A stretch of DNA of 64,000 nucleotides from the NCBI GenBank assembly GCA_030263455.1, contig SZOZ01000011.1:1-64000 (forward strand), written 5' to 3'. The first letter of the stretch is position 1, and each line of letters starts with the position of its first letter. A program made the position numbers and the translations under genes. The notes beneath the pieces are model-generated. The model was not told where the DNA came from and searched no databases. It saw only the letters and a program-made list of their open reading frames with translations. Source of the stretch: Synechococcales cyanobacterium CNB. GTDB taxonomy: Bacteria > Planctomycetota > Phycisphaerae > Phycisphaerales > UBA1924. Shown piece after piece: positions 30,197 to 37,830 of this stretch.

Positions 30197-32944
30197 TCAG
30201 CCGCGCACGGCGGCAAGGAGTTCGCACGGCCTCCGGCGGTTCAGTCGCGCGATCGATGGCGCGGCCGCGCTCAGGCACATCAGCAGCACGAAGCCCCATC
30301 CGGCCGCGATCGGCAGCAGCGGCGGGCGTGGGGTGAGCGACAGGCCCAGCAGCAGGGCGTTGAGCCGCGTGCCGCCCCATGCGCCCTGCGTGCCCATGAG
30401 CGTCCCGAGCAGGCACGCTGCGGACGCGATTAGCAGGGCCTCGCCCGCGATCAGGCGGAGCAGGAGGCCACGTTGAGCGCCGAGGGCACGCAGCACGCCG
30501 AACTCGAACTGGCGTGCCTCGACCCCGGCAACGATGACGTTGGCCACACCGAAGCAGGCGATGAACATGCTCAGCACGGCAAGAGCGCTGACAGCGAGCA
30601 GCGTGCCGCGGATGAACTCCTCGATCTCACGCCGGATCATCCGTCCGCTGCCGGCGTCGAGGATGCCCGCTGCAAAGAGTTCGCGCCGGATGGTGCGAAT
30701 CGCGTCGGCATCGTCGGCGTCGTCGGCCAGATCGATCTGGATCATGTTGATGGCGTCGGAGCCGAAACGCTCGCGCAGGTCGCGCCGGCTCCCGAACACG
30801 GCATGGACGGCCTGCTGGAGGTACTCGTCGCCGACGTTGAAAAACTTGCTGACGACGTCGAGGCCCGGGCTGGTGACGACGCCCACGATCTCGAACTCGT
30901 GCAGCACGCCGTTATCCTCGCAGCGGAAGACGTCGCCGACACCCATCCCCTGGGCGACCTTGAACTCGCGGGCAACGATGACCGCGCCGCCTGCTTCGAG
31001 TCGGCGTTGCGCTGTGGCGGGGTCACCCTCCACCCAGGTGAGATTGGACATGCGAAAGAACGGCTCAGGCTCGAAGGCGATGAAGGTGGTGCGGTAGCGT
31101 TGCAGGGCGCGCACCCCGAAGGCGTCGGTCTCCACCGGGTGCAGCGTGATGGCGCAGGTGTTGGTGACGAAGGGGAGGGCGTCGAGGGCACGCACGCTTT
31201 CATCCGTGAGCGCGAGGCCGGTGACGAACGCGTCGGGAAACTTCAGTTTGCCGAACCAGTCGCGGAGAACCGCGCCGCCCTGGGTCCAGAGCGCGACCAT
31301 CAGGGCAAGGCCGGCCATCATCGCGCCAGCGGTGAAGCCGTATCGGAACGGCGTCGCCCGGATCGTTCGCCCGAGCAGCCTGCGAGGCAATCCGAGCACG
31401 GCGGAGACCACGGGCCCGAAGGCAGCCGATGCGAGGAGCATCGCGGGAAGGCCGAGCAGGAAGTAGCCGGTGAGCATGGCGGGCAGGCCGAGGGTAACGT
31501 AGAGCCAGAAGGCAGTCTGGCCGTCGTTGGGCGTGCCGATCACGATCGCGTGTGTCGCAGCTCCGGCGAGTCCCGCAATGGTGACGGCGACGACGGCTCT
31601 GCGTGTCGGCCTGCGTGCGCGAGCGGCGAGCGCTCGCAGCGGGCTGGTGCGAGAAGCCCGCCATGCCGGTGCGAGCGCGCCGGCAACACCGCTCGCCAGC
31701 GCGCCGGTGAACGCAAGGCAAATACCGAGCGGCAGCACGCGAGGGCCGGCGGGCACCTGCTCCGGAAACGCGGCAATGAGCGACCCCGCGACCAGCAGGC
31801 CGAGCGGGACGCCGATCGACCCTCCGAGACCGCCGACGACGGCGCCGACCAGCAGTTGCGCGCCGCCGAGCTGGCCGCGCGAGGCGCCGATGCACCGCAG
31901 CACGGCGAGTTCTCGCTCGCGCTCAACCGCATCGGTCATCATGCCCGTGAACGTGATGAAGGTGGCGGTGAGGAAGGCGAGGAAGGTCGCCAGCGCGAGG
32001 CCGAGTTGCGTCGAGGCAATGCTGCGTTCGACGCCGGAGGTCACGCGAGCGCTGGTCTGGAGCACGACGCCGGGCGGCATCTCGGAACGGCGTGTCACGA
32101 CGATCTCCTCGGCGCGGTCCGGCTCTCGCAGCACGGCGTCGATCTCGCTGAGCCTGCCCGCGCGCCCGGTGATCGAGCCGAGGCCGTCGAGCGTCATGTA
32201 CGCCTGCGGTCGGCCTCCGAGCGGCGGCTGGGCCGCGATGCCGACGACGGTGAGCCGCACGGGCCGACGGAGAAGCCGGACAATCTCGACCTCGTCGCCG
32301 ACGCGCACGCCGACGCGGCGGTTGATCTCCTCGGCCTTTCGTGCGTCATCCAGGCGATCGGGAACCTCGGGCGCGGAGGTTTCCCAGACTCCAGGCCCTG
32401 CCACGAGCGTGAAACCGCCAAGCGAGGCCTCGGCGTCCCGTGCGGCGAGCCAGGTCAGCCGCTCCGCGAGCGCGGCGTCGATGACGATCTCGCCGGCTTC
32501 GCGTGCCTCGCGTCCGGCGAGGATCGTGATCGGCCGGACCAGCGAATCATCTTCGAAGGAGACGCCGAGCGCGAGAGCGGACGCTCTCAGCGTGAGTTTC
32601 GCCGCCTCGCTCCGGCCGTCCATCTCGGCCAGGAACGCCGTCGTGAAGACGATCGATACGGTGTCCTGCAACCGTCCCGCGGCGGCTTTCGTCTCCGGCC
32701 ACGAGCGGACCGTGCCGAGGAGCGAGGCGTCGAAGGTCTGTCCCGTTCCGGTCGGGCGAACCTGCAGGTCGGCGCGGCCGACCGCGGCATCGAGCCGCAT
32801 GCGCACGGACTCGTTGATCGAAGCCATCGCGCAGGAGACGGCGGCGATGAGTGCGGCCGAGAGGGCGACCGCCGCGACGAGCAGCGCAGTGCGCCTACGC
32901 CGCCCGGACAAACTGCTGGTAGCGAGCCGCCACGCCGGACGCAT
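30197..32944 (-). CDS. MacB/LolC-type ABC transporter permease with two FtsX domains
   Basis: A 915-aa inner-membrane permease. An N-terminal helix and periplasmic MacB-like domain are followed by an FtsX domain (around 330-450, with RERELAVLRCIGASRGQL), a second periplasmic region and a C-terminal FtsX domain (around 790-900, with EFGVLRALGAQRGLLL). Such permeases extract lipoproteins or export lipids and peptides rather than import. The ATG at 32944 lies inside the ATPase gene, overlapping its end by 50 bp, showing tight coupling with the ATPase encoded just upstream. Confidence 0.88.
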   Translation of the reverse strand: MRPAWRLATSSLSGRRRRTALLVAAVALSAALIAAVSCAMASINESVRMRLDAAVGRADLQVRPTGTGQTFDASLLGTVRSWPETKAAAGRLQDTVSIVFTTAFLAEMDGRSEAAKLTLRASALALGVSFEDDSLVRPITILAGREAREAGEIVIDAALAERLTWLAARDAEASLGGFTLVAGPGVWETSAPEVPDRLDDARKAEEINRRVGVRVGDEVEIVRLLRRPVRLTVVGIAAQPPLGGRPQAYMTLDGLGSITGRAGRLSEIDAVLREPDRAEEIVVTRRSEMPPGVVLQTSARVTSGVERSIASTQLGLALATFLAFLTATFITFTGMMTDAVERERELAVLRCIGASRGQLGGAQLLVGAVVGGLGGSIGVPLGLLVAGSLIAAFPEQVPAGPRVLPLGICLAFTGALASGVAGALAPAWRASRTSPLRALAARARRPTRRAVVAVTIAGLAGAATHAIVIGTPNDGQTAFWLYVTLGLPAMLTGYFLLGLPAMLLASAAFGPVVSAVLGLPRRLLGRTIRATPFRYGFTAGAMMAGLALMVALWTQGGAVLRDWFGKLKFPDAFVTGLALTDESVRALDALPFVTNTCAITLHPVETDAFGVRALQRYRTTFIAFEPEPFFRMSNLTWVEGDPATAQRRLEAGGAVIVAREFKVAQGMGVGDVFRCEDNGVLHEFEIVGVVTSPGLDVVSKFFNVGDEYLQQAVHAVFGSRRDLRERFGSDAINMIQIDLADDADDADAIRTIRRELFAAGILDAGSGRMIRREIEEFIRGTLLAVSALAVLSMFIACFGVANVIVAGVEARQFEFGVLRALGAQRGLLLRLIAGEALLIASAACLLGTLMGTQGAWGGTRLNALLLGLSLTPRPPLLPIAAGWGFVLLMCLSAAAPSIARLNRRRPCELLAAVRG

Positions 32945-33629
32945 CGAGTCCCTCCGTGTCGATCTTTCCCTCGACGCGCCCGTCGCGGAGCACGTACACA
33001 CACCGGCAGTGCGTCGCGGCGGCCGGTTCGTGCGTGACCATCACGACTGTCATCGCCCGTTCCGCTGCGAGCGAGGCGAGCAGGCACCAGAGACGGTCGG
33101 CGTTCGCCGAGTCGAGCGCACCCGTCGGCTCATCGGCGAGCAGCACGGGTGGCGAGAAGAGCAGCGCCCGTGCGATCGCCACCCGTTGCTGCTCGCCGCC
33201 TGAGATGGCATCGGGGCGGCGATCGGCAAGGTGTCCTACGCCCAGTTCGTCCAGCAGTTCGCGGCTTCGCTGCGCAAGCGTGTGCGTCGGCTCGCCGGCC
33301 AGCACTCCCGGCAGTTCGACGTTTTCGCGGGCCGTCAGAGTCGGGATGAGGTTGAACTGCTGGAAGACGATGCCGACGCCGCGACGCCGGAACTCAGTCG
33401 CCGCCCGTTCGTTGAGCGTGTGCAGGGGCCGCTCGCCGTGCCAGACTTCGCCGGCGTCGGGGCGGTCGAGCGCGCCGAGCAGGTGAAGGAGCGTGCTCTT
33501 GCCGCTCCCGGACTGCCCCATGATGGCGTAGAAGCCCGGCTCGGGGACGTGCAGGTCCACGCCGCGCAACGCCTCGACGCGCTGCGACCCTGTCTGGTAC
33601 GCCTTGCTGACGCCGACGCACCGGATCAT
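32895..33629 (-). CDS. ABC transporter ATP-binding protein (MacB/LolD-like)
   Basis: A 244-aa ATPase with Walker A GQSGSGKST (about 38-46), Q-loop in FQQFNLIPTLTARENV, signature ISGGEQQRVAIARAL, Walker B VLLADEPTGALD and switch His in MVTHEP. The ARENVELP and GEQQRVAIARAL forms are typical of LolD/MacB-type exporters. It energises the permease encoded directly downstream, forming a complete ATPase-permease pair; no membrane-fusion partner is seen nearby. Confidence 0.93.
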   Translation of the reverse strand: MIRCVGVSKAYQTGSQRVEALRGVDLHVPEPGFYAIMGQSGSGKSTLLHLLGALDRPDAGEVWHGERPLHTLNERAATEFRRRGVGIVFQQFNLIPTLTARENVELPGVLAGEPTHTLAQRSRELLDELGVGHLADRRPDAISGGEQQRVAIARALLFSPPVLLADEPTGALDSANADRLWCLLASLAAERAMTVVMVTHEPAAATHCRCVYVLRDGRVEGKIDTEGLDASGVAARYQQFVRAA

Positions 33630-33678
33630 GCGGCCACCGCCCCTCGCCCGTGCCGTTCGATGCTGGAACGTCGCCGTC

Positions 33679-34059
33679 TCACGCGCCGTACTTGGCGTCG
33701 TAGGCGGCCGCTTCCATCAGGCCGCCAAGCCCTGCCGCGTCCTTGATCCTGATCTTCACGAGCCAGCCGGCACCGTACGGGTCGCTGTTGAGCAGACTCG
33801 GATCTTCGGCGACGGCCGGGTTCGTCTCGACGACTTCACCGGCGCACGCGCAATAGACGTCGCTGGTGGTCTTGACGCTCTCGACTTCGCCGACCGAGTC
33901 GCCGGCACGGAATGCGAAGCCTGGCTTCTTCATCTCGACGTAGGTGACGTCGGTGAGTTGATCCACGGCGAACCGCGTCAGACCGAGCGTGAGCGCGTCG
34001 CCGTCAACCTTGTGCCATTCGTGCGAGTCGGAGTAGCGACGGTCGGACGGGCTTGCCAT
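33679..34059 (-). CDS. gcvH: Glycine cleavage system H protein
   Basis: A 126-aa lipoyl carrier that shuttles the aminomethyl group between the P and T proteins. The N-terminus YSDSHEWHKVDGD and the lipoylation site ESVKTTSDVY with Lys63 are diagnostic, and the C-terminal NSDPYGAGWLVKI fits. Length is normal. The ATG at 34059 follows AAGGAACGC. gcvT and gcvP are not adjacent; the gene stands alone between the ABC exporter and a rightward operon. Confidence 0.95.
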   Translation of the reverse strand: MASPSDRRYSDSHEWHKVDGDALTLGLTRFAVDQLTDVTYVEMKKPGFAFRAGDSVGEVESVKTTSDVYCACAGEVVETNPAVAEDPSLLNSDPYGAGWLVKIRIKDAAGLGGLMEAAAYDAKYGA

Positions 34060-34198
34060 GAGCGTTCCTTCGGAAGTGGGTGGTGTCAGGTTCGGCTCGG
34101 TCGCTTCGGGTCGGGGTGAGCCTGCCCGAACGGGCCGAATGGTATGGGTGACGACCACAAGTGGAAACCCCAAGTCTTTTCTCTACTTGCGGGTCTGC

Positions 34199-34228
34199 TT
34201 GACACGAGTTGAACGATTCCGCTATCGT
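34199..34228 (+). promoter_or_regulatory. Strong housekeeping promoter ahead of a leader terminator
   Basis: A perfect -35 TTGACA (34199-34204) is separated by 18 bp from TATCGT (34223-34228, four of six matches). Predicted transcripts start near 34236. No rightward gene begins until 34376, and an intrinsic terminator lies at 34257-34290, so this promoter either drives a very short RNA or a regulated leader for the TIM-barrel/cmk/plsC genes. The rest of the 316-bp gap after gcvH shows nothing else I can identify. Confidence 0.6.
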
Positions 34229-34256
34229 GGCTGCTTCACGCAGTCTCTCCCCTCCG

Positions 34257-34290
34257 GACGGTCGGTGCCTCACGGCCCGACCGTCTTTCT
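34257..34290 (+). terminator. Intrinsic terminator in the leader of the 34376-36791 operon
   Basis: GACGGTCGG (34257-34265) pairs perfectly with CCGACCGTC (34277-34285), with an inner GCC/GGC pair extending the stem, followed by TTTCTTTG. No rightward coding gene ends before it, and gcvH is transcribed away from it. It therefore terminates a short RNA from the 34199 promoter or acts as an attenuator. Confidence 0.72.
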
Positions 34291-34375
34291 TTGTCTTGCC
34301 CACCCTTCCTGGCTTGTCGTGGCGGTTCAGGGGTTGCTCGGGTAGAGTGTGTCGGCTGGAGGGGTATCCACGGAC

Positions 34376-35239
34376 ATGCTGCTGACGCTGACAGTAACCG
34401 ACGCGCGACCTTTTCTGGCCACGCGCCGCCCGTCTGGAAAGCCGGACCTTCATGCCCTTCCGACCGTCGTGGCCGACGATCTGGGGCTTCACGGCCTGAA
34501 CCTTTCGACCGCCTTGCTTGCCGGTGCGGAGGCACGCGACCTGGAGCGGCTTAGGGAGAGCGCGGACAAGGCTCGTTGCTCGTGCCTCGTGCTGATCGAA
34601 CCCGGCCCGCTCGGCTTCGCCAGCCCGGACGAGGACGAGGGCGAGAAGGTCGTTGAGAGGGCAAAGAGGGTGTTGCAAGCGGGGGCATTCCTCGGCTGCA
34701 ACGCGGTCTCTGTCCGCATCGAAGCGGACGTCTCGGAAGAGAGCGGGGAGATCGTTGCCGAGCGGCTTCGGCCTGTCGTTGAGCGGGCGGAGAAGCTGGA
34801 AATCAACTTGGCCATCAGCCCCGCACCCGGCCTGACAGCCGAACCGAACCGGCTCACTGACCTCATCAAGTCGGTGGGAGGATTCCGGATCAACACCATG
34901 CCCGACTTCCAGGCCGCGGCGGCGTCCGCCGAGCCGGTGCAATACCTGCGCAGGCTGACTCCCTACGCAGCGGCGGTCTCTGCCTCCACTGTCGCGTTTG
35001 CCGTGCCCGCTGGGTCCAGACCGCGCAAGAAGGCGGCGCCGGAGGCGGAAGCATCGGAAGGATTGGTGCCGCCTGAGCACACGGCCTACCCCCTCGACCC
35101 GATGGTTCGGGCGGTCGTGTCCGTGGGGTTCGAGGGCAATCTTGCCGTGGAGTACCGGGGCGAAGGAGACGCTACACTGGGCGTAAAGATGAGCCGCGCG
35201 GCCTTGGAGGATGCGATCCGCCGGGCCGTTCAGGCATAG
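34376..35239 (+). CDS. TIM-barrel protein of the sugar-phosphate isomerase/AP-endonuclease-2 fold
   Basis: A 287-aa protein. Alternating beta-alpha blocks (LPTVVADDLGLHGLNLSTAL, CLVLIEPGPLGF, AGAFLGCNAVSVRIEAD, LEINLAISPAPG, GGFRINTMPD, VVSVGFEGNLAVEYRGEGD) fit a xylose-isomerase-like TIM barrel. The full His/Glu/Asp metal set is not evident, and Cys residues replace some expected positions, so it may be a non-catalytic or divergent member. The ATG at 34376 follows GGAGG; GTG at 34349 is possible. It is 30 bp upstream of cmk and likely cotranscribed. Confidence 0.6.
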   Translation: MLLTLTVTDARPFLATRRPSGKPDLHALPTVVADDLGLHGLNLSTALLAGAEARDLERLRESADKARCSCLVLIEPGPLGFASPDEDEGEKVVERAKRVLQAGAFLGCNAVSVRIEADVSEESGEIVAERLRPVVERAEKLEINLAISPAPGLTAEPNRLTDLIKSVGGFRINTMPDFQAAAASAEPVQYLRRLTPYAAAVSASTVAFAVPAGSRPRKKAAPEAEASEGLVPPEHTAYPLDPMVRAVVSVGFEGNLAVEYRGEGDATLGVKMSRAALEDAIRRAVQA

Positions 35240-35269
35240 TGCCTTTGCCGACGGGGGTTGGGCCGAGCG

Positions 35270-36013
35270 ATGGATTCACGCGGCGCAACGATCCCGACCC
35301 GCCCCCGACCACGGATCGCCGTGCCTGCCGACCTGCCCATCATCATCACGATCGACGGCCCCGCGGGAACGGGCAAGTCGTCCGTCGCCCGTGCCCTCGC
35401 GTCGCGGCTTGGGCTGGATTTTCTCGACACCGGGGCGATGTACCGGGCCGCGGCGGCCATCGTGATCGACCACGGCATCCCGCACGATGACTACGGCGCC
35501 ATCGTCGAGAAAGTGCGGAGCGCGGACCTGCACTTCGACTGGTCCCGGGATCCGCCAGCCATGCTGGCGTGGGACAGACCCATCAACGGTCGCATCCGCG
35601 AGCCGGACGTGACCGCGATCGTCTCCCCGATCTCTGCGATCCCGGAACTGCGAGCGCACATGGTGCAGAAACAGCGGATCATCTGGCACCAGCACCCTCG
35701 GCTGGTCTCAGAAGGGAGGGACCAGGGGTCGGTGGTCTTCCCGGATGCAGCGGTGAAGTTCTACCTGGACGCTGACCCGGCAGAGCGTGCCCGTCGCCGC
35801 GCCGACCAACTTCGTACGGCAGGCCTGCCCGCTGACGAGGCCGACTTGCTTCGGGACATTGTCGAACGGGACCGGTCTGATTCCACCCGGCCGGTCGGGC
35901 CGCTTATCTGCCCGCAGGACGCTGTCCGGGTGGACACGACGCGGCTCTCCTTTGACGAGGTCGTGGACCGGCTCGAAGACGAAGTCCGAGCGCGGATCGC
36001 CGCCCTGCTCTGA
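35270..36013 (+). CDS. cmk: Cytidylate kinase
   Basis: A 247-aa enzyme that phosphorylates CMP/dCMP with ATP. The P-loop is DGPAGTGKSS (29-38), followed by the CMP-binding DTGAMYRA motif. REPDVTAIVSPIS and VSEGRDQGSVVFPDA blocks match the family (the latter usually EGRDIGTVVFPDA), and RRADQL lies in the lid. The N-terminus has about 20 extra residues. ATG 35270 was chosen over TTG 35258. The cmk-plsC order is common in bacteria. Confidence 0.93.
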   Translation: MDSRGATIPTRPRPRIAVPADLPIIITIDGPAGTGKSSVARALASRLGLDFLDTGAMYRAAAAIVIDHGIPHDDYGAIVEKVRSADLHFDWSRDPPAMLAWDRPINGRIREPDVTAIVSPISAIPELRAHMVQKQRIIWHQHPRLVSEGRDQGSVVFPDAAVKFYLDADPAERARRRADQLRTAGLPADEADLLRDIVERDRSDSTRPVGPLICPQDAVRVDTTRLSFDEVVDRLEDEVRARIAALL

Positions 36014-36059
36014 CGGCTGGCATGGCGCGTGGGAAACGCCGGACCGGTACCCTCCGCTC

Positions 36060-36791
36060 ATGTTCACAAGGCTGCGGGCCAGGCGCCCGGGAACCACACT
36101 GGGCAACCTGTTCGTCTACGAGACGATGCGGCGGCTGCTGTCGCTGATCCTCCGCGTGCTGTACCGCCCTGTTGTGCAGGAAGTTACGCGTGTACCGCCG
36201 ACGGGGCCGGTCCTGCTTGCCGCCAATCACCAGTCGTTTCTCGACCCTCCCGTGATCGGATTCGCGGTTCGGAACCGGCATCTGGATTACGTCGCCCGAG
36301 CGGGACTTTTCGCCTCACCCGCGTTCGGTCGGCTGATTCGTGCTCTGAACGCGATCCCGATCAGCGAGGAGGGCGCGGACGCGGTCGCCATCCGCGAGAT
36401 TCTCAGGCGGCTGGAAGCGGGGCGGGCGGTGCTCATCTTCCCGGAAGGCTCGCGCACGCCGGACGGGGCGATGCACGAGTTCAAGCGGGGGGTCGCCGTT
36501 CTTGTCCGCCGGTCATCGTGCCCCGTCATGCCCGTGGCGATCGAGGGTGTCTACGACATCTGGCCTCGTTCGTCGAAATGGCCGCGCCTTTTCGGGTGTC
36601 GTGTCGCCGTCCGCTACGGCAATCCGATTCCCCACGACGAACTGCTTCGCCACGGCCCGGACGCAGTGCTGGACCGACTACGACGGGAGATCGACGCGAT
36701 GCGGCTCGAACTACGCGCGGAACTGCATCGTCGCTCAGGGGGGAGGTTCCCCCCGTCAGGGGCGGGAGATCAGGGTGTTGAGGCTGCCTGA
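36060..36791 (+). CDS. plsC: 1-acyl-sn-glycerol-3-phosphate acyltransferase
   Basis: A 243-aa membrane-associated acyltransferase of phospholipid synthesis. The catalytic NHxxxxD box is NHQSFLD (56-62), and the substrate motif FPEGSRT lies at 127-133, with the PVAIEGVYDIWPR block after it. It follows cmk by 46 bp, suggesting a shared transcript. The C-terminal 20 residues are Gly/Arg-rich and not family-like. It ends 7 bp before the convergent agmatinase-family gene. Confidence 0.92.
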   Translation: MFTRLRARRPGTTLGNLFVYETMRRLLSLILRVLYRPVVQEVTRVPPTGPVLLAANHQSFLDPPVIGFAVRNRHLDYVARAGLFASPAFGRLIRALNAIPISEEGADAVAIREILRRLEAGRAVLIFPEGSRTPDGAMHEFKRGVAVLVRRSSCPVMPVAIEGVYDIWPRSSKWPRLFGCRVAVRYGNPIPHDELLRHGPDAVLDRLRREIDAMRLELRAELHRRSGGRFPPSGAGDQGVEAA

Positions 36792-36798
36792 TGGGCAC

Positions 36799-37830
36799 TC
36801 ACTTGGCCGTTGAGCGTCCGACGACGCCGCAGAGCCGGTAGAGGATTCTGGCACCGACGTTGGCGTCCCACTCGTCGCCGTCCGGGCCGGGCGCAACCTC
36901 GACGAGGTCGAACCCGACGACCCGTCTCCCGGATGCCGCGAGCGTCGCCAGGAGGAGCGAGACTTCGCGCCACGACAGGCCACCGGGCACGGGGGTCCCG
37001 GTGTGGGGGCAGAGGGCGGGGTCGAGGCCGTCGATGTCGAAGGTGACGTACACGCGCTCGGGCAGGGCCTCGACGATCCGTCGGCAGCGCTTGGCGAATG
37101 AGCGGGCGTCGGCCAGACGGTCGAAGAGGTCGTCGTCGTAGTGGACGATGACACGGCGCTCGTCGCTGCTACGCAGGTCGGCGTAGGCCTCCTCTCGCTC
37201 GCCGAAATCGCGGATGCCGACCTGCACGACGCGCTTCACGCGAGGCTCGTCCTCGAGCACGTTGAACATGACGGAGGCGTGCGACCACCGGAAGCCCTCG
37301 AAGCGGTCACGCAGGTCCATGTGGGCGTCGATCTGCAGTACGCCGATGTCGCCCCAGCGTTCGGCGCACGCGCGGATCGCCCCATAGGAGACGCTGTGCT
37401 CGCCGCCGATGACGCCGGGCACTCGGCCCTCTTCCAGCGCAGCGAACACGCGTTCGGCGACGAGGGCGTTCATCTGCGAGCCGACCATGTCCACCCTGCC
37501 GACGGCTTCCTCATCGCCCGGCCCCGCGCCGCCGTGCTGGATGATGCGACGCGCGTGCTCGCGGGCCTCGTTTCCCCAGAGGCGGAAGCGGGCGTCCTCC
37601 TCCTCCATGAAGATGCCGTGGTGCCAGACGGGTCCGAATCGTCGATCGTGCAGGTCAACCTGTGCCGACGCGGCGCGGATCGCGTCCGGGCCGTGCTCGG
37701 TGCCCCCGCCGTAGGAGGTCGTGGCTTCGAAGGGCACGGGGATGAGGACAATGCCGGCGTCGTCGCGTGCCGTCGGCAGGCCGAACACGCCCGCGCCCGG
37801 CGCGACCGCCGCGTCTGGGTCGAAGGTCAT
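36799..37830 (-). CDS. speB: Agmatinase/ureohydrolase-family enzyme
   Basis: A 343-aa binuclear manganese hydrolase of the arginase/agmatinase/formiminoglutamase family. Metal ligands are visible as His145 in GGEHS, Asp168-Ala-His170-x-Asp172 in DAHMD, and Asp265-x-Asp267 in DIDGLDP. The N-terminal PVPFEATTSYGGGTEHGP is typical of agmatinases, which make putrescine and urea, but GAH or arginine derivatives are alternative substrates. Length is about 40 aa above E. coli SpeB. Confidence 0.88.
   Translation of the reverse strand: MTFDPDAAVAPGAGVFGLPTARDDAGIVLIPVPFEATTSYGGGTEHGPDAIRAASAQVDLHDRRFGPVWHHGIFMEEEDARFRLWGNEAREHARRIIQHGGAGPGDEEAVGRVDMVGSQMNALVAERVFAALEEGRVPGVIGGEHSVSYGAIRACAERWGDIGVLQIDAHMDLRDRFEGFRWSHASVMFNVLEDEPRVKRVVQVGIRDFGEREEAYADLRSSDERRVIVHYDDDLFDRLADARSFAKRCRRIVEALPERVYVTFDIDGLDPALCPHTGTPVPGGLSWREVSLLLATLAASGRRVVGFDLVEVAPGPDGDEWDANVGARILYRLCGVVGRSTAK

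Follow-up and report, generated by a model that had tools for sequence, protein, structure and literature searches.

A candidate family of small RNA genes with a conserved anti-Shine-Dalgarno-type pyrimidine tail in the Phycisphaerales

Organization of the locus

The window, i.e. the whole stretch of 64,000 nt that was analysed, contains between two divergently transcribed genes a short element made up of a promoter, a pyrimidine stretch and a terminator-like hairpin. The features of the locus are as follows.

33682-34059, minus strand: gcvH (glycine cleavage H protein; Pfam GCV_H, 6.2e-36), divergent neighbour
34199-34228, plus strand: sigma-70-type promoter TTGACA-N18-TATCGT of the putative small RNA (sRNA), with a transcription start inferred near 34235
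34235-34292, plus strand: putative type 1 sRNA of roughly 55-60 nt, its extent inferred from the positions of promoter and terminator
34244-34255, plus strand: pyrimidine tail TCTCTCCCCTCC, unpaired in the predicted RNA, its CCTCC end being the anti-Shine-Dalgarno (anti-SD) core of 16S rRNA; proposed seed
34256-34286, plus strand: terminator hairpin, from folding and from pair conservation across 54 distinct copies
34286-34292, plus strand: TTTCTTT, T-rich run of the intrinsic terminator, from the sequence
34343-34348, plus strand: TAGAGT, candidate -10 box for the TIM-barrel operon, 3' of the sRNA terminator, starting 33 nt before the ATG
34376-35239, plus strand: xylose-isomerase-like TIM-barrel gene (Pfam AP_endonuc_2, 1.1e-12), downstream neighbour lying outside the element

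A preliminary description of this DNA had placed a promoter at 34199, and the sequence bears this out: TTGACA occupies 34199-34204 and TATCGT 34223-34228, with a spacer of 18 nt, and this is the sole sigma-70-like site found by a promoter scan of both strands from 32000 to 37000, a region in which 0.2 such sites are expected from shuffles. The hairpin begins 27 nt beyond the promoter and reads GGACGGTCGG-U-GCC-UCAC-GGC-CCGACCGUCU, with 13 pairs (the closing G-U included) and one bulged U. It had been described as long and perfect; strong it is, and followed by the T-rich run, but the bulge leaves it only nearly perfect. The segment from 34234 to 34300 folds at -25.4 kcal/mol (z -3.9), a value equalled by 1 of 200 shuffles. 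In the terminator scan of 32000-37000 this hairpin is absent from the list, because the bulge probably pushes the loop past the 8-base maximum of the search pattern. The 12-nt pyrimidine stretch between promoter and hairpin had gone unremarked; to judge from the comparisons given below, it is the most conserved part of the element. The covariance model R2, which has the window copy in its training set, matches 34239-34297 with an E-value of 8.3e-11.

Between the promoter and the ATG at 34376 the list of open reading frames contains only short mechanical ORFs and no leader peptide, in agreement with the earlier statement that no coding gene intervenes there. Since gcvH is divergent, the hairpin cannot terminate an upstream gene, and the possible users of the terminator from upstream are limited to a transcript starting in the gap or one running antisense through gcvH.

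Conservation of the element ahead of the TIM-barrel gene

Loci were fetched by homology of the TIM-barrel protein, and thus independently of the element. Matches were obtained in 38 of 41 genomes and the best 30 loci were used. A terminator-like hairpin above threshold is present upstream of the TIM-barrel gene in 15 of these 30 loci and absent from the same place in the other 15. In all but one of the hairpin-bearing loci (14/15, the exception being L023) a C-rich tail ending in CCTCC lies directly 5' of the hairpin; it reads TCTCCCCTCC in 12 cases, TCTCTCCTCC in one and GCCTCCCCTCC in one. Three of the 14 (L001-L003) belong to the window's own genus. Where the hairpin is missing, gcvH adjoins at 110-271 nt in 12 loci and at 401 nt in L010, and is non-adjacent in two; the gap is 283-632 nt in loci having both the element and an adjoining gcvH. 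Among these loci the tail is thus common property, and the stem changes.

Of 201 genomes belonging to the order, 19 contain the pattern TTTCTCCCCTCCNGACGG, in a single copy each, and none contains its reversed control; the window copy reads TCTCTCC, with C at the second position, and is therefore not counted among them. All 19 loci have a divergent gcvH upstream, and 17 have the TIM-barrel gene downstream. A narrower pattern retrieved 37 stretches from the GTDB genome collection, with titles naming Phycisphaer- (25), 'Planctomycetota bacterium' (4), Tepidisphaera (1) or others (7). A hairpin is carried by 32 of the 37, and among these gcvH lies within 400 nt in 29 and the TIM-barrel gene downstream in 29. 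Loci L114, L118, L125, L130 and L143 were taken as chance matches, having no element-like hairpin below -15; the three loci without gcvH within 400 nt are L119 and L121, where the element lies at the edge of the stretch, and L126, where gcvH is 3 kb away. Two of the records, L142 ('Cyanobacteria bacterium CYA') and L146 ('Leptolyngbya sp. PLA1'), carry gcvH, the element, the TIM-barrel gene, cmk and plsC, an arrangement otherwise seen in Phycisphaerales; these metagenome-assembled records appear to be misnamed or mixed.

Covariation of the stem and conservation of the tail

In an alignment of 55 copies (54 distinct rows), standard pairs fill 97.2% of the cells in the 10-pair stem, a count that leans towards this structure since the alignment was fitted to it. 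Changes on both sides are seen in 9 of the 10 stem pairs among the 54 distinct rows, and the covariation score of the stem is 0.626 compared with 0.207 in shuffles, none of 500 shuffles scoring as high. The covariation analysis that had been suggested in the preliminary description thus shows that the stems covary in relatives. For type 5 (the types are described below), 15 of the 19 copies were aligned and folded independently; they share a 14-pair stem with double changes in 7 pairs, each carried by 1-3 sequences. Alignment A4 is a rebuild of A3 with a stricter cut, by which three antisense hairpin artefacts, and also L150, were dropped.

The tail ends in CCTCC in 55/55 aligned copies, in 42/42 matches of one set and in 18/20 weaker matches, whereas a random 11-nt stretch of the own genome contains CCTCC in 1.1% of cases; part of this invariance is a selection effect, the tail having been the query, or a component of the model, by which most loci were found. 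The uninterrupted tail is mostly 11-18 nt long and consists purely of pyrimidines, UCUC and CUCC are separated by a variable number of Cs, and in types 3 and 5 the tail is largely a run of UC dinucleotides. The 3' end of 16S rRNA in the own genome is GGATCACCTCCTTTCT, in which CCTCC forms the anti-SD core. An unpaired stretch containing CCUCC is thus conserved while the stems diverge, as is expected of an sRNA with an anti-SD seed.

Promoters of the family

Of 34 distinct type 1 loci, 22 have an upstream sigma-70 score of at least 8/12 (shuffles average 3.4 and peak at 9), and a promoter of at least 8/12 that includes TTGAC precedes the tail in 19 of the 34 (shuffles: mean 0.2, maximum 2). In these counts identical cores were counted once, and the second match of L199, in which no motif was found by regular expression, was left out. 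The preliminary description had held that its proposal would fall if hairpin and promoter were not conserved; both are conserved, yet 12 of the 34 distinct type 1 loci are without a good sigma-70 promoter. As read from the sequence, type 1 has its own promoter and its own terminator independently of its neighbours.

The other types differ in this respect. In type 5, 14 of 19 distinct copies have an upstream TANHNT box whose end is 6-9 nt away from the tail (shuffles: mean 0.8, maximum 4), from which it follows that the RNA would start almost at the tail; type 5 shows no TTGACA box, and its full sigma-70 mean best score is 6.7 against 6.3 in shuffles. By eye, the sequence upstream of several type 5 copies (e.g. 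L172, L189, L191 and L208) reads GAAC or GCAAC, then CCGAT or CGAT, then a TATACT-like box, a pattern that is perhaps the site of another sigma factor or of an activator. For types 2 and 3 the upstream sequence yields no sigma-70 promoter in excess of shuffles.

Types, copy number and taxonomic range

The covariance model built for type 1 gives weaker full-length matches elsewhere in the order, some ahead of the TIM-barrel gene and others not, in which the same kind of tail precedes quite different terminator stems. We distinguish five types, a grouping of our own. Type 1, beside gcvH, has RGACGG stems. Type 2 has CUUUCUCCCCUCC-GCCCCGUU stems; in the scanned loci it follows a gene for an amidase, a ROK kinase or a glycosyltransferase. 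Type 3, with CUCUCUUUCUCCCUCC-GGGCG stems, follows an HDOD gene in the own genome and homologues of this gene elsewhere. Type 4, CUCUCCCCUCC, occurs in the own genome on contig C14, with a weak match on C1, 8 nt behind a secretin gene, and type 5, with GAUCUCUCUCUCCUCC-AGCGGGG stems, has varying neighbours.

With model R2 and a threshold of E<=1e-5, the own genome has four members, at C11:34239 (the window copy), C9:223195, C14:1937 and C2:580894. A possible fifth one, C1:233340, has an E-value of 0.056 with model R1 and is absent from the R2 matches at E<=0.05; its counterpart in genome G001 (C16:192840) reaches 5.7e-6 with R2. At E<=0.05, R2 has a match in 38 of 40 genomes of the order, some of them to the hairpin only. 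Such hairpin-only weak matches are probably ordinary terminators and were not counted as members, but are included in the raw tallies of 38/40 and 40/41. When full-length R2 matches at E<=1e-4 are considered, at least one is present in 37 of the 40 genomes and at least two in 27. The E-values of R2 are not independent, because many of its later matches were already among the 47 copies used for training.

A sample of 199 genomes from the phylum gave, at E<=0.001, 12 genomes with a match, 9 of them order members and 3 others; the three out-of-order matches are weak and two of them cover only the hairpin part. Among the non-matching genomes listed, which begin with other orders of the class, there is no member of the order. 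The bare 13-mer CTTTCTCCCCTCC is present in 54 of 294 genomes phylum-wide, against 32 for the reversed pattern by count of the listing; 9 of the 15 order members listed match it and none shows the reversed control. Of the 25 loci outside the order (L080-L104), 3 have a following hairpin that passes -8 kcal/mol, one of them below -15, whereas a terminator follows CTTTCTCCCCTCC in 5/5 loci from order members (L105-L109), four of which are sites already known. Occurrences of CTTTCTCCCCTCC outside the order, mostly with no terminator after them, were treated as chance and not as family members. In L080 and L081 (family f78, outside the order) CTTTCTCCCCTCC is followed by a similar hairpin and a T run, by chance or as a distant relative. 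Judging by these matches, the family appears to span the order Phycisphaerales, usually with several copies per genome.

Possible function of the element

The preliminary description had left two readings side by side, an attenuator or a gene for an sRNA of 50-60 nt, and had the element control the TIM-barrel, cmk and plsC genes. Sequence comparison favours the sRNA gene and does not support the attenuator. The layout of promoter, tail and terminator is kept in many relatives, elements of this kind recur elsewhere in the genomes, and some of the genes downstream are convergent. The independence of the unit (best seen for types 1 and 5), the conserved tail, the covarying stem, the recurrence and the restriction to the order together support an independent sRNA gene family, whose existence we regard as very likely. 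That its members are trans-acting sRNAs of the anti-SD type, each a unit with its own sigma-70-type promoter and intrinsic terminator, seems to us the better-founded reading, with a sizeable margin of doubt.

According to this proposal, the RNA of about 55-60 nt would consist of an unpaired 5' pyrimidine tail ending in CCUCC with the terminator hairpin directly after it. The tail would act as a base-pairing seed that recognises, in a subset of mRNAs, purine-rich Shine-Dalgarno regions with GGAGG or extensions of it, the pairing would block ribosome entry in trans, and the hairpin would serve both termination and stability. We propose pairing in trans with purine-rich start regions because the element resembles the alpha-r14 sRNAs, in which a conserved unpaired anti-SD stretch is likewise combined with freely changing stems. 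For the tail as an anti-SD seed, taken by itself, we put the chances at about even.

A search for targets was made with 258 predicted start regions from 464 kb of the own genome, with the first ATG or GTG in each long frame used as the start, a simplification that blurs the test. The type 1 seed has a mean of -8.03 at these regions, the same as shuffled seeds. Sites at or below -13 kcal/mol number 24 for type 1 (27.9 with shuffled seeds), 32 for type 3 (44.6), 45 for type 5 (63.7) and 60 for type 4 (64.0). The real 16S tail, used as a yardstick, gives 35 versus 33.5, and since it fails too the test has little power. When start regions are compared with gene-internal ones, the numbers of sites are 24:21 for type 1, 32:18 for type 3, 45:37 for type 5, 60:49 for type 4 and 35:16 for 16S. 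Shine-Dalgarno motifs belong to a minority of the 258 start regions and show modest enrichment there, with GGAGG in 22 (10.2 when shuffled) and AGGAG in 18 (4.2 when shuffled). No genome of 41 has a match to Hfq over the cut-off and one, G017, has a sub-threshold match; the control search is positive in 5 of 14 known genomes. On this evidence the putative sRNAs do not qualify as Hfq-dependent.

What speaks against a leader of the operon is found between the terminator and the TIM-barrel gene. There, 36 of 53 distinct loci have a conserved -10-like box, TACAGT or TAGAGT (searched as TA[CG]A[GCT]T or TAGATT), whose first base lies 8-35 nt ahead of the TIM start codon, against an average of 0.5 loci and a maximum of 3 in shuffles. 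Of the 39 loci that carry the element 27 have this box, and of the 14 that lack the element 9 have it. The TIM-barrel gene therefore most likely has its own promoter, and the control of TIM-barrel, cmk and plsC genes by the element, as first supposed, is not borne out. A cis-acting attenuator or leader of this operon would account for the position of type 1, usually about 93-330 nt upstream of the TIM-barrel gene on the same strand, and the order of promoter, then intrinsic terminator, ahead of a gene is indeed that of transcription attenuators and leader terminators. In the window a long leader fold pairs CCCCUCC with the GGAGGGG Shine-Dalgarno sequence of the TIM-barrel gene, but with a z of only -1.4 and 21 of 200 shuffles as good; this pairing is possible in the window's genus and, by eye, is not kept in the TIM upstream sequences of most other genera, so that it was rejected as an antiterminator. 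The antiterminator alternative that had been envisaged among relatives did not appear either, no conserved alternative fold being seen. Unlike attenuators, moreover, copies of the element exist without a co-directional gene directly downstream: the next gene is convergent in L115 (CHRD domain, at the same place as in L063), in L124 (LigT-like phosphoesterase, whose open frame crosses the element on the other strand) and in L065 and L119 (DNA gyrase B, gyrB), and elements with the same tail adjoin unrelated genes. With the box beyond the terminator persisting at loci devoid of the element, we hold an attenuator to be very improbable, the least probable of the readings considered.

If the copies were ordinary intrinsic terminators, the pyrimidine-rich stretch would be incidental and there would be no regulatory RNA. 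This would suit types 3 and 4, the copies of which sit about 8-220 nt behind same-strand genes and could be pieces of 3'-UTRs, and also the failure of a sigma-70 promoter to stand out for types 2 and 3. It would leave the conservation of the tail and its CCTCC without a reason, as neither is known to play a part in intrinsic termination; and type 1, placed after a divergent gene and with its own promoter in most loci, has consequently nothing to terminate but itself. We therefore regard this explanation as improbable. The main rival is another one, namely that the RNAs are decoys and the tail is the ligand of a pyrimidine-binding protein such as Rho, ribosomal protein S1 or a cold-shock protein. 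UC-rich pyrimidine runs resemble the preference of Rho for its primary sites, and a purely pyrimidine tail, the UC runs of types 3 and 5, the varying C count between UCUC and CUCC and the seeds' failure to exceed shuffled ones at start regions (a weak test) would all fit. Against it, CCTCC in 55/55 tails is more exact than a protein reading composition would need, even if the gathering models favour CCTCC, and the uninterrupted tail, mostly 11-18 nt, is short. A decoy thus seems unlikely to us, less so than the other two alternatives.

The TACAGT or TAGAGT box, which in many loci lies about 14 nt from the start codon of the TIM-barrel gene, suggests near-leaderless mRNAs, and to judge from the sequence the mRNA would be nearly leaderless at such loci. 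A few other genes in a sample of the own genome share the layout with a box at about 14 nt (4 versus 0.9 in shuffles). At this point we may only speculate that, in bacteria with no recognisable Hfq and with many mRNAs devoid of a Shine-Dalgarno sequence or a leader, the order-wide anti-SD RNAs form a switch that silences the minority of Shine-Dalgarno-led mRNAs and spares the near-leaderless ones, differently regulated siblings setting the mode of translation; we consider this a long shot.

Relation to known small RNAs

With Rfam 15 there was no match in the window, and none on the element in six loci at E-values up to 1; the lone match at E<=1 is to a snoRNA model, elsewhere in L160 and far below the gathering score, and was discarded. 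The CcsR or cuckoo RNAs of alphaproteobacteria are multicopy small RNAs with conserved CCUCCUCCC-type motifs, and their architecture and genomic setting differ from those of the Phycisphaerales element. C-rich motifs aimed at Shine-Dalgarno regions are a feature of LhrC1-5. The element is like LhrC1-5 of Listeria in having several sibling sRNA genes per genome, as far as the available parts of the published accounts go (PMC4132741, PMC5880928), but the lineage is unrelated and the likeness is one of description.

The closest parallel is with the alpha-r14 sRNAs of rhizobia. In the portions available of the papers describing them (PMC10746234, PMC3927594), these have an unpaired conserved anti-SD stretch alongside stems that change freely, and NfeR1, an alpha-r14 sRNA, silences mRNAs via anti-SD motifs. 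On that partial account, an ultraconserved unpaired anti-SD motif (CCUCCUCCC there, UCUC(C/U)nCUCC here), divergent stems and a trans-encoded location are common to both, whereas the alpha-r14 RNAs have three hairpins, each with CCUCCUCCC, and the element has one motif, in a 5' tail on a terminator alone, with several stem types. With one hairpin and the motif outside it, the element falls outside alpha-r14; the phyla differ, and the resemblance would be one of working. By titles and abstract openings, the part of the literature covered, on small RNAs of planctomycetes or Phycisphaerales and on anti-SD sRNAs, held nothing recognisable as this family. We therefore file it as a new sRNA family, smaller in architecture than the known anti-SD sRNAs whose way of working it would share, and as a member of no named family. 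Sequence alone thus reveals a family that spans the order in several copies, combines a fixed, seed-like tail with freely varying stems, and gives testable predictions on how translation is controlled where Hfq is not recognisable and Shine-Dalgarno sequences are used sparingly. If the proposal is true, a minimal regulator made of a tail and a terminator has evolved convergently with the rhizobial anti-SD sRNAs in a different phylum.

Tandem and repeated copies

Locus L043 contains a tandem pair of type 2 elements, at 1501-1559 and 1686-1743, 185 nt apart. In genome G032, four near-identical copies (L200, L201, L202 and L203) with a CTTTTTTTCTCTCCTCC-type tail and a longer hairpin lie near contig ends and adjoin different genes, among them one for a DUF1501 protein (L201) and one for an Fe-S protein (L203); they resemble a repeated or mobile variant of the element.
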